Below, in pieces: positions 6,076 through 10,650 of a DNA stretch of 64,000 nt. Under the pieces are notes generated by a model. The model was not told the DNA's origin and searched no databases. It was given only the letters and a program-made list of their open reading frames with translations. This stretch comes from Opisthocomus hoazin. Its lineage: Eukaryota > Chordata > Aves > Opisthocomiformes > Opisthocomidae. Numbering within the stretch: position 1 is the first letter of the stretch; every line of letters begins with the position of its first letter. The DNA is taken from contig NC_134441.1 in the NCBI RefSeq assembly GCF_030867145.1, forward strand, positions 7,132,992 to 7,196,991, given 5' to 3'. The translations under genes were made by a program, and so were the position numbers.

Positions 6076-6960
6076 AACATCGGGGGTGTCACACTAAGGA
6101 CGGTATTTGGGGTCTGGAGGGGTGGGAAGGCGAGCAGAGGGGTTGAGCAGCCCCTGAGGAGACGCGGGAAGGAACAGGCTTCAGCAGAGCACAAGAAATG
6201 CAATTTTACAGTTGAAGACGGAGAAGTGCAGGGCGAGCCGGCGCCTGTCAGCGGGGGCAGAGGCTGCGGGCGCCCGTGCTGCTGCTCTCCGCGTCCCAGG
6301 CCGAGCTGCGGCTGGGCCAGAAAGCGGGGACGGGGCTGGAGCCGACGGCTGCGGGGAAGAAACCGGCTCAGGACACAGCCATGTCCTGAGGCCGCAGCAC
6401 AGCGAGCACCAGACGCCTGTTTGGGGCCCTCCAGCCTGTCCCCAAGGTGTGGATCCAGCTCCAAGCACCGTCACAGCCCATGCCCTGTCCCCAACCCACA
6501 AACACAAGATTTCCTTCTGAAGAGGTTGCCATTAAACGCAGAAAAACCAGAGCAAAGCAGCCAGGTCCAGCCCAGCTCCACAGGGAAAGCACCAGGACAG
6601 AAAAGGGACGCGGCCACCGACCCCGCTGCCGGGCAGGGGCTTCGCTCCCTCGCCGTGGGGATCGGCTGGGTGCTGGCTCCTCGTCTGCCCCGTCCTTGGG
6701 CTGGAAGAGAGGAGAGGGAGGTGACCATCAGCTCCCAAAGATGGGACCCCACGTCCCAGCATGTCTCCCAGCCCAACCTCCAGCCATGGATTTTGCTCCC
6801 CAGGTAGAGCCGGCGGCTCCACTTTCTCCAGCGGCTTCTCCAGGCTGAGGACCATCACCTTGGGGAGAGCCAGGGCAGGAGAGGGAGGTTTCCTGGAACA
6901 AGAACGACTCGTCACCCACCGCACGATCGCCAGCACCACAGGCTCCACCGAACCCCCCCG
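6076..6960. other. Unassigned sequence; expected place of the CCAR2 3' end
   Basis: By synteny the last CCAR2 exons, encoding the coiled coil, should lie here on the minus strand. No coiled-coil exon was recognised. One splice-acceptor-like site (TTCTTGTTCCAG) on the minus strand at about 6900 opens a frame containing LSLEKPLEKVEPPALPGE, which could not be assigned. Nothing else is supported. Confidence 0.4.
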
Positions 6961-7964
6961 GCCTCCCTACGCCCCCCGCAGAGCTCGCTCCGCTTCCCTC
7001 CGGAGCGGGCAGCCACGGAAACGGAGATCGAAGCACGCGAGGGGCTGGGAGAGCATCCAGGGATGGGGTGGTGCGTGGGTCCGGCTCCTTGGGCTGCCGA
7101 AACACCGAGCTCCCCGAAACACCGACGCTGCAGAGCGGGGCGCAGGCGGTGCTGAGCTCCCAGGACGAGTGGGACAGCACCGGGGCCACCACGTTCTCCC
7201 CTGGCTATGTACCTACCTCTGCTCAGCACCCTCCTCCGCCTCAGCAGCCCCTTCTGGCTCCGGGTTCCTGGTCTCCAGCAGCTCCTCCGGCAAGGCCAGC
7301 AGTGCCTGGTAGTGATTTTAGCCAAAACCCCGCTGCAGCATCTCCTGGAAGAGCTCAGCCCCCACCACGGCCACGTTGGGGAAGGAGATGGGCACAGGGG
7401 ACCTGCCCGCCCGTGCTGTGCCGAGCCAACCTCGGAGGAGAGCTTCTCCCACCACCTCCTGCACTTCAGGAGGGTGAAGATGGAGATGGTGGAGCCGGCA
7501 GCCCGCCCGGGCTCCGGCGGTAGCTCGGTGGTGCCCGCAGCAGCCCCTCGCTGCTCGGAGCCTCCATGTCCTGCTAAGAACTGCTCTGTTGAGGTGGGAG
7601 CGGGCAGAGAAGGCGCTGGGAGCTGTCACCCGAGGTGGGACCTCACCTTGTCCGAAACACAGCCCTGCCCAAGCACCTACAGAAATGAAACCGCCTTTAG
7701 GGACGCCGGAGCTGGGCTCGGCCCCGCGGCAAAGCCTCACCGCCGCGGGCTTCTCCGGCGACGGAGGCGGCGAGGGTCCCTTGGAGGGAGGCTTCCCACT
7801 CCCGGGGAGCCCTGCCCAGATGTCCAGCAGGAAAATCACCACCACCTCCCACCGGTACCTGAATTTGGCAGACGCTGCAGCACGGGAAGCCCAGCAGAAA
7901 GCAAGAAACCGGCCCCCCGTAAAACCTTCCCGCTGCCAGCGGGGAGGCTGCGAAGCCGGGAGTG

Positions 7965-8230
7965 AATCCCAGAATCCCAGCATGGGGGGGTTGGCAGGGC
8001 CCTCTGTGGGTCCCCCAGCCCAACCCCCTGCCCAAGCAGGGTCACCCAGAGCAGGGGGCACAGCACCGTGGCCAGGCGGGGCTGGAATATCTCCAGAGAA
8101 GGAGACTCCACAGCCTCCCTGGGCAGCCTGGGCCAGGGCTCCGTCACCCTCAGAGGGAAGAAGTTCTTCCTCGGGTTCAGCTGGAGCTTCCTCTGCTTCA
8201 GTTTGTGCCCAAGGGGACGGGACCAGGTCA
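7965..8230 (-). mobile_element. CR1 LINE, 3' fragment, in a CCAR2 intron
   Basis: Read on the minus strand this is the 3' end of a CR1 retrotransposon: the end of the ORF2 reverse-transcriptase reading frame ([18 protein letters not shown], [14 protein letters not shown] residues), then GGTTGGGCTGGG and a double GGGATTCTG tail at 7965-7980. It is truncated at the 5' side. It shares the CATGCTGGGATTCTG tail with the copies in SORBS3 and at 55.5 kb. Confidence 0.9.
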
Positions 8231-10132
8231 TGGAAAGGCTGGTGGCTGTCCCCAACAAGGCCATTTGCAGGGACACGGAGCGAGGCCCCGGCCCGAGAGC
8301 ATCCCCTGCCCACCCTGCGCCCGCTGGGACCGAGCCAAGCCTCCTCCTCCTCCTCCTCCAGCACAGAGAACTTCATCTCCCCTCCGCTGTTCCTTCCCAA
8401 CCGCATCACATGCTGGGCCAGGTTGGAGCAAAATAAACCCGGTTGCCACAGTTACCCGGAGCTGGGGGGGTTGGGGGGGGGGATGCTATATATAAACCAC
8501 CACGCCAGGAGCCCAGCCCGTGCGCCCAGGTGACGGCCACGCTCTTCCACGGGTGACACGTGGTGGGGCTGAGCCCACGGGGGTGGTCTGCCGTGCCCCG
8601 GGTGGGCAGCAGCCACGTGCCCGGAGGTGTCCGTGTTCCTCGCTGGGTTGAACCCACCCGGCTTCGTGCCACGCACACCAGGACCGCGGGGTCCGAGCAG
8701 GATGGGGACCGTTCCCCGACGGCGAGCGCGGCTTCGTTCTCCTCCTCCCTGGCAGGGACAGGCGCTGAGCCCGGCCGCATCGCAGCATCCCGGCCGTCCC
8801 CCTTCCCCCCCAAAGCCCCCTTGAGGACAAGACCCCCAGGGGACACCAGGTTTTGCAGATGCCGTCCCACAAGGAGTCCAGCAGTGAATGCAGATGACAG
8901 CAGAACACCAAACCTGAGGGGATTTCCCCCAAAACTGGGTGAATTAACCCTTGCCAGGACAGCCAGGTCCAGCACACGCCTGGGGCCGCACCTCCATTTG
9001 CTTCTTCAGGTGCTCGGGAGCCTTCCCTTGCTCTGGGGCCACCAGGGCTGTCACCTGGGTGAGAGCTGACCCTCCCTTCCTCCTCACCTTGGCCCTGAAA
9101 GCAGAATCGGGGTCACCTGGAGTGGTCTCGGCATCCTCCTCGGGGCCAGCAGCCAGGATGCGGCCGGGGGACGGCCGGCGAGGGGGAAGGCGTCCGGCCA
9201 GCCCAGGCGGAGGTGGCAGAAGCCGCCGGGCAGCCGGGTGCTGCCGTGGCATCTCCCCAGCGTTGCAGGAGGGGCTGGAGAACCTCACCGAGGGCGCTGG
9301 GGCTCGCTCTGAGCCGGCCCACCCCGAAGCGGTCCCCACAGACAGAGCTGGCTGCCCCGAGACCCACAGAAACCAGAGAGATTCTCTCTGACCACAAATA
9401 TTCCCCCCCACCCCAAAAAAATCACCGCAGGGCCGGAGCACCCAGTGGGGCAGGGCCCGGTGGCGTAAGAGGGGTCTGGAAGGCAGAGGCGGTGGAGGGC
9501 AGCAGGGGAGGGGGCTGCCCAGATGCCCACCCCACAGCAGGGGACACGTCCCCCTCCTCATCATCTGCCCTTTGGTCCTCGCCCCCGGCGTCTCCCCAGG
9601 TGATGGGGGCGGTGGGATGAGCATCACTGCTGGAGAGGGGGGGGAACAGGGATCATGAGCCCCCCATGGCACCACCCAGGCGTGAGTCTGCTCCAGAAAC
9701 CCCGAGCACCCACAGCAGCCCCCCACCCCGCTGCCAGCCTTCCCGGGACCCCCAGCCGGCCGGGGCGAAGGGCGAGCTCTCGCCTTGCCGGGGTGGGCTG
9801 CGGCGAGGCTGGAGGGTGCCCTGCTGCTGCCCGGGGGTGGCACGGGGGGGGGGGGGAGCTCTGCCGGGGGTCCCGGGAGAGGCTGCTGCGAAGGAAAAAA
9901 CCCAAGTCACGGTAGGAAACGGCCGAGGAAGAGGGGGGTGGAGGGGATGGGGGGGTACCTGGTCGGAGAGCGGGGCTGCAGGCAGCTTTCGCCAGCGTCT
10001 TCCCCACCGGCGGTACCCGGCCCTTCGCCCCCAGACCCGACGGCACGGTGAGGGGCTCCACCGGCATTGAAACCCCCTCCCCACCGCCGCTGGGAGAAGA
10101 CCTCCTCGCCCAGCACCCCAAACGCTCCTGCA

Positions 10133-10400
10133 GACCCCGGGGAAGACCCTCTGCTTCTCCCCCAACACCCCCCCCATCCCACCCCGGTGGGGACCCCCGG
10201 GGAAGACCCTCTGCTTCTCCCCACCACCCCCCATCCCATCCCGGCAGGGACCCCCCCAGGGAAGACCCTCTCCTTCTCCCCCAACACCCCACCACCACCC
10301 CGGCGGGGACCCCCCAGGGAAGACCCTCTGCTTCTCCCCACCACCCCGGCGGGCACCCCCCAGGGAAGACCCTCTGCTTCCCCCCACCCCGGCGGGGACT
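10133..10400. repeat. Minisatellite carrying a CCAR2 exon fragment
   Basis: Five or so copies of a roughly 55-60-base unit built around GGGGAAGACCCTCTGCTTCTCC, followed by CCCCAACACC or CCCCACCACC and CCCGGCGGGGAC. On the minus strand the core reads GEKQRVF, matching the start of a conserved CCAR2 segment. The copy nearest 10139-10160 continues into the FGVLGEEVF block, so it is probably the original exon copy. Confidence 0.8.
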
Positions 10401-10650
10401 CCCCGGCGCCCCCTCCCCACCCACCTGCGGCGGCTCGGAGGGGAGCGGGGGGCTCAGCAGGGAGGTCTTTGGGGGGGGGGGGGGGGGGGGAGGACAAGCT
10501 TCCCCCCCGCTCCGAGGCAGGGGGAACCCCGGGAGGGACCTGGGAGGGGGTTGAGGGTCTGGGGGGTTGGGGACCCGGGGTCGGCAGCCGCTTGAACCGG
10601 GGCGCGCGAACAAAAGGGGCGGGAAAGCAGCTCGGGAAGTGATGCTGCCG

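Follow-up and report, generated by a model that had tools for sequence, protein, structure and literature searches.

CCAR2 remnants between BIN3 and C8orf58

The stretch of DNA analysed here (referred to as the window; 64,000 nucleotides of Opisthocomus hoazin, contig NC_134441.1, positions 7,132,992 to 7,196,991) carries on its minus strand, in the interval between BIN3 and C8orf58, a relic of CCAR2, the gene for DBC1 (KIAA1967). The relic extends with introns from about 10561 down to 6774, perhaps to 6665. The initial annotation, made from the sequence of the window, had set its limits at 6960 and 10600; the relic was found there, and it continues below 6960 with the start of the coiled coil (6815-6774). 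Human CCAR2, at the published length of 923 amino acids, was used as the query. By tblastn, the LAIKA core with an internal stop and pieces of the S1-like domain were detected. The query was then aligned with the locus using a home-made spliced and frameshift-aware aligner, in which introns of at least 30 nt were permitted. The blocks of the relic are listed below from N- to C-terminus; the two settings mentioned are those of a run in which splice sites were scored and a CCAR2/CCAR1 profile was used.

10535-10561, minus strand: remnant of the CCAR2 N-terminus, QTLNPLPGP (human QRINPLPGG; P_region 0.005)
10140-10380, minus strand: minisatellite of about 59-bp units with the S1-like motif EKQRVFPG, including an 18-bp core in five copies
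10087-10165, minus strand: first part of the S1-like domain, GEKQRVFPG / FGVLGEEVFSQ, the frame changing by -11 near 10130-10122
9959-10028, minus strand: second part of the S1-like domain (tentative), KGRVPPVGKTLAKAACSP ... LSDQ, with a donor at a CCAR1 intron position, phase 0 after residue 119
9088-9276, minus strand: block of residues 235-309, ending in FRAK at a donor, a CCAR1 phase-0 intron position (both settings)
9055-9087, minus strand: intron reduced to a 33-nt remnant, placed as in CCAR1 between residues 309 and 310 (both settings)
8992-9054, minus strand: remnant of the exon for residues 310-347, 17 residues short, then a GT donor at a CCAR1 intron position
8667-8744, minus strand: first part of the Nudix-like region (DBC1 domain), with an 18-nt deletion
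7778-7854, minus strand: last part of the Nudix-like region, VVVIFLLDIW... / REWEASLQ, with a -7 frame change
7282-7374, minus strand: LAIKA domain remnant, AELFQEMLQRGFG, stop, NHYQALLALPEE, the stop being TAA at 7320-7318 (tblastn E 1.6e-8 for the region)
6979-7111, minus strand: remnant of the EF-hand-like region, its frame shifted by +1 near 7042-7036, and TAG at 6969-6967 just past its end
6774-6815, minus strand: start of the coiled coil, RRLYLGSKIHGWRL (human GRLYLENKIHTLEL; P_region 0.0025)
6665-6703, minus strand: possible C-terminus (weak), DEEPAPS (human KEEPAPSN followed by the stop), after a good splice acceptor and with the stop codon lost

Some of these assignments are less firm than others. 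The second part of the S1-like domain gave a single-segment P of 0.12 and lay on the path in the first of the two settings only. The donor after the remnant of exon 310-347 was placed at 8991 in the first setting and at 8977 in the second (segment P 0.065), and the second half of the last Nudix-like part gave by itself a P of 0.14. The very C-terminus is kept tentative because two search settings gave two different alignments, whose observed score was equalled or exceeded by 1 of 60 shuffles in one case and by 0 of 60 in the other; the site at 6665-6703 is the third-best place of its segment, and other human residues were assigned there by the aligner. No ATG was found at the homologous start in three-frame translation, the nearest in-frame ATG being about 46 codons further upstream, at 10699. 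This lack of a start codon had been noted in the initial annotation, which had also missed parts of the Nudix-like region and the coiled coil; the first part of the former and the start of the latter are present in the list above.

The alignment of the relic was compared with those of shuffled queries. In the strictest setting the relic scored 182, while 12 block-shuffled queries reached 44-67, the query in reverse 65 and the opposite strand 57; the corresponding values were 305 against 92-134, 117 and 92 in the second setting, and 371 against 127-171, 164 and 139 in the third, each again with 12 block-shuffled queries. With splice-site scoring and the profile, the score was 165 against 41-69 in the first setting and 122 against 38-59 in the second (20 shuffles each), the path of the latter running from residue 243 onwards. 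When 21 segments of human CCAR2 were moved along the minus strand of 4624-10800, the best places of 17 followed one another as expected, and P was at or below 0.01 in 11 of the 21 (400 shuffles each), single P values being optimistic since the segments were chosen after the first alignments had been seen. The order of conserved blocks described earlier is thus borne out, and the frameshift-aware spliced alignment proposed as a check did recover the relic.

At sites where human CCAR2 and CCAR1 of this bird agree (paralogue-invariant sites), the residue is kept in the relic at 74 of 113, a count biased upwards by the selection of recognisable blocks, and changed at 39. The crude divergence at these sites is about 0.19 per site, which is biased low by the same choice. 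A Pfam scan of 6500-10800 in three frames, with stops read as X, gave LAIKA only, at 16.8 bits (cut-off 27), and no DBC1 match; the cut-offs that a functional gene should reach are thus missed by both LAIKA and the Nudix-like DBC1 domain. A PDB search with the Nudix-like segment of CCAR2 gave no match.

Inactivating lesions and remaining introns

Five changes of reading frame between neighbouring blocks, previously placed at 10110, 9240, 9150, 7831 and 7047, were all recovered, namely from 10165 to 10122, 9276 to 9236, 9236 to 9117, 7854 to 7804 and 7111 to 7035. The spacings differ from those in human by -11, -8, -28, -7 and +1 nt, respectively, none being a multiple of three, and the room left between the blocks is 7, 1, 62, -1 and 7 nt, so that no intron fits in four of the five. 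Two of the changes lie inside the block of residues 235-309 (-8 near 9237 and -28 between 9180 and 9117). The 62-nt gap from 9236 to 9117 is the one place where a very short intron might conceivably fit; in CCAR1 this part lies within one exon, and the lower flank of the gap, the 9117 block, is the second-best place of its short segment. As to the two in-frame stops claimed before, TAA at 7320-7318, which replaces a LAIKA residue between the two conserved strings, is solid, whereas the other, taken to be TAG at 6969-6967, falls at the end of the EF-hand block, where the alignment is poor, and is weak as a lesion.

Six lesions were counted in 225 relic codons, whereas BIN3, PDLIM2 and PPP3CC together have none in 1091 (Fisher P 2.4e-5, the relic blocks having been chosen around the lesions). 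The spliced frameshift-aware alignment of the whole relic, with a score of 254, contained seven frameshifts and one stop. Frameshifts that the aligner set in linkers of weak conservation, such as those at 10485, 9901 and 7563, were left uncounted because a plausible acceptor site adjoins 9901 and one such frameshift also turned up in the CCAR1 control. In addition, two stretches are shortened: residues 554-686 are covered by 209 nt where 396 nt are needed in human without introns, and residues 711-825 by 220 nt where 342 nt are needed. The open reading frame through the S1-like, Nudix-like, LAIKA and coiled-coil regions, by which a functional CCAR2/DBC1 would be recognised, is absent, and the EKQRVF motif of the S1-like exon has been amplified into the minisatellite at 10140-10380.

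Among the 12 introns of the first splice-aware path, three are located at CCAR1 positions in phase 0, one of them in both settings and two in the first setting only. The coding blocks are separated by 250-840 nt where human requires far less. Because of the intron positions shared with CCAR1 and this wide spacing, the relic is, as judged from its sequence, a non-processed copy. None of six poly(A) hexamer variants was detected on the minus strand of 4624-10737; the sole match on that strand within 4624-11000 is AATAAA at 10743-10738. Another AATAAA, on the plus strand at 5535, presumably belongs to BIN3.

Flanking genes, the CCAR1 paralogue and the search for other copies

The features that border or interrupt the relic are as follows.

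4478-4623, plus strand: last exon of BIN3, the downstream flank, intact (human BIN3 query)
7964-8210, no strand assigned: repeat inserted in the relic, presumably CR1-like, with copies of 84.5-97% identity over at least 190 bp elsewhere in the window and in L019 and L020
10651-10775, no strand assigned: three perfect TGACGTCA palindromes at 10651, 10676 and 10768 (exact matches)
10738-10743, minus strand: AATAAA, the presumed poly(A) signal of C8orf58, in the upstream flank of the relic (hexamer scan)

On the side downstream of the relic, BIN3 ends at 4623 and aligned over 252 codons with no frameshift and no stop. Upstream, on the minus strand, Pfam domains identified a DUF4657 match at about 12285-11830, which we take to be C8orf58, followed by a LIM domain and by SH3 and sorbin domains as in SORBS3; C8orf58 and SORBS3 were recognised by these domains alone. 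A calcineurin A gene further upstream on the same strand, detected with a PPP3CA query, was called PPP3CC from its place. No lesion was found in 334 codons of PDLIM2 or in 505 codons of PPP3CC, in agreement with the in-phase state of these neighbours reported at first, and BIN3, which had not been listed then, is also free of lesions. In human, CCAR2 is located between BIN3 and C8orf58, tail-to-tail with BIN3. Because the flanking genes match this order, the interval is the place of CCAR2, with BIN3 on one side and the DUF4657 gene, PDLIM2, the SORBS3-like domains and PPP3CC on the other. Directly downstream of the DUF4657 match, at 11218-11619, a 23-bp unit is repeated in tandem about 18 times.

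Further copies of the CR1-like repeat are located at 24221-24468, 28484-28725, 55547-55793, 57431-57685 and 58932-59125. Since three copies in the window are 96-97% identical, their sequences suggest recent activity of this repeat in the genome. The CR1-like repeats and the order of the genes are both in keeping with a bird.

The three TGACGTCA sites, which we take to be cAMP-response elements (CRE), lie within 125 bp and are all the exact matches in the 64-kb window; a count of three was reached in none of 100 shuffles. They are located where the old promoter of CCAR2 is expected, and this stretch is a putative promoter. The observed/expected ratio of CpG is 0.77-0.81 at 10500-10899, against 0.34-0.39 at 10100-10499, and is 0.78 in the next stretch upstream, 10900-11099.

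As a control, the same CCAR2 query was aligned with the paralogue CCAR1 of this bird (contig C6, 53.33-53.35 Mb), and gave a score of 1000 over 809 codons without frameshift or stop. The relic is thus similar to CCAR1 in domain order and three intron positions, but differs from it in that CCAR1 is intact. Compared with mammalian CCAR2/DBC1, the relic is the same with respect to chromosomal place and to the remnants of S1-like, Nudix-like, LAIKA, EF-hand-like and coiled-coil regions in order, but is different in that these domains are not connected by an open frame, a poly(A) signal is lacking, and several domain stretches were not found.

No second CCAR2-like copy was detected in the assembly of 1.48 Gb and 415 contigs by searches with the CCAR2 protein and with the DBC1, S1-like and LAIKA families. 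The protein search gave nine matches, including seven at CCAR1 on C6, the relic, and a weak one on C12 (E 4.7). The DBC1 domain matched on C6 alone, and LAIKA twice on C6 and once at the relic (20.9 bits, cut-off 27). The S1-like family (PF14444) matched twice on C6, once on C8 and once on C4. The last two matches are located outside CCAR1, at C8:51726948-51727064 (27.3 bits, cut-off 25.2) and C4:88271267-88271344 (20.1 bits, below that cut-off).

Explanations of the relic and meaning for birds

Taken together, the locus is very probably a syntenic unitary pseudogene of CCAR2, because the lesions, the lost exon stretches, the minisatellite and the lack of a poly(A) signal are found at the relic, while three neighbours and the paralogue came through the same alignment procedure without damage. 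The reading proposed in the initial annotation is thereby supported: the relic is syntenic and non-processed, with five frame changes and one stop, and no intact copy was found. Since a broken relic remains in the old chromosomal place, the absence of CCAR2 looks like a genuine loss of the gene rather than a gap in the sequence.

Several points weigh against this conclusion. Four of the 21 segments lacked a best place in order, these being ADSDPAYSSK (second-best place in order), GNLDLLPPPGK, NGSLINVGSLLQRAEQQ and ADSWVEKEEPAPS (third-best place in order). Nine of the 12 introns in the splice-aware path are off the CCAR1 positions, and in the same run one frameshift was set in the CCAR1 control as well, within a linker of poor conservation. 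The agreement of the CCAR2 query with the published protein is one of length, and the evidence comes from a single assembled genome sequence. It is also odd that a gene dead for so long should have three intact CRE sites left at the old promoter position.

An intact CCAR2 on a GC-rich microchromosome might have been broken on paper by errors of sequencing or assembly, as the relic stretch contains 66-73% G+C with long C/G runs, in which long reads make indel errors. Such an origin, which the initial annotation had judged to explain the locus poorly, is very improbable: PDLIM2 is clean at 69-75% G+C, the three neighbours are clean over their 1091 codons, four of the five indels (-11, -8, -28 and -7) are no single-base slips, and the LAIKA stop and the 39 changed invariant sites add to these. 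It is scarcely credible that a fast-evolving functional CCAR2 persists and is spliced around the lesions, with four of five frame changes leaving no room for an intron, a stop inside the LAIKA core, one intron of 33 nt and no poly(A) hexamer, even though three splice positions are still common to the relic and CCAR1, and passages of PMC8449477 and PMC5470226 report GC-rich bird genes that are hidden, as well as accelerated evolution of such regions. When lesions were forbidden, the score of the relic decreased from 254 to 164 and that of CCAR1 stayed at 1000, in a setting that has no shuffled-query null.

A functional CCAR2 might also have moved or been duplicated, the relic being the old copy only. 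GC-rich genes can be missing from assemblies, according to passages of PMC5470226, and absence from 415 contigs is no proof; nevertheless, with no copy detected by the protein or the three family searches, and with no DBC1 in birds according to passages of PMC4287135, this too has very little probability. A dead coding gene whose promoter still makes a non-coding RNA would be compatible with the pseudogene and would add to it as the best explanation. Such a transcript is unlikely on balance: the three CRE palindromes and the raised CpG at 10500-10899 argue for it, but CpG is equally high at 10900-11099 and may reflect C8orf58 or simply the base composition, and Rfam gave no match in 4600-11000.

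The loss of DBC1 in birds is already in print. PMC4287135, a report of 2014, found DBC1 not present in birds by neighbourhood analysis of GenBank genes; absence in birds is common to that report and to ours, whereas the physical relic, unmentioned in its passages, is new here. Among the matches listed in the open-licence literature, the absence was stated in PMC4287135 alone, as judged from its passages, and no earlier report of a bird CCAR2 relic was found. PMC11186191, on the Gag interactome, was rejected as evidence for chicken CCAR2, as its passages name CCAR2 twice, each time for HIV-1 (HeLa) data, with the words 'HIV-1 only' in the discussion. In passages of PMC6406535 and PMC10668855, CCAR2 appears solely as a partner of p53 and of SIRT1, respectively; the text portions of PMC12447723 do not contain CCAR2, and those of PMC10834508 do not mention birds. 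Two papers on missing avian genes, PMC4290089 and PMC12954441, take part in the same debate of true loss or hidden gene, and DBC1, BIN3 and SORBS3 do not occur in their main texts. In turtles, CCAR2 is named among expressed genes in passages of PMC8614379 and PMC5024102, indicating that it existed in the wider reptile group.

The crude, downward-biased divergence of about 0.19 per site would fit a very old loss; turtles keep CCAR2, and the 2014 paper found none in birds. The coding gene would have died long ago and then drifted, the order of events being not readable from one genome. Whether CCAR2 was lost before living birds diverged, so that birds live without this inhibitor of SIRT1, HDAC3 and PARP1 while the CRE-bearing promoter may still be used, is put forward tentatively, as a somewhat doubtful proposal. 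In mammals, according to passages of PMC10474295, CCAR2 inhibits SIRT1 and PARP1 and stabilises p53, and DBC1 controls SIRT1, HDAC3, SUV39H1 and PARP1 (HDAC3 and SUV39H1 also in passages of PMC4287135). Without DBC1, SIRT1, HDAC3, SUV39H1 and PARP1 would lose this inhibitor and p53 would lose one stabiliser, from which we infer a metabolic consequence in this bird; the intact CCAR1 on C6 may cover part of the role.

The debate on missing bird genes is one of loss versus concealment in GC-rich DNA, and finding the broken gene at its syntenic place speaks positively for loss. The relic supplies exact lesions to seek in other birds, and the absence of DBC1 bears on the transfer of mouse findings on sirtuins, ageing and p53 to birds.

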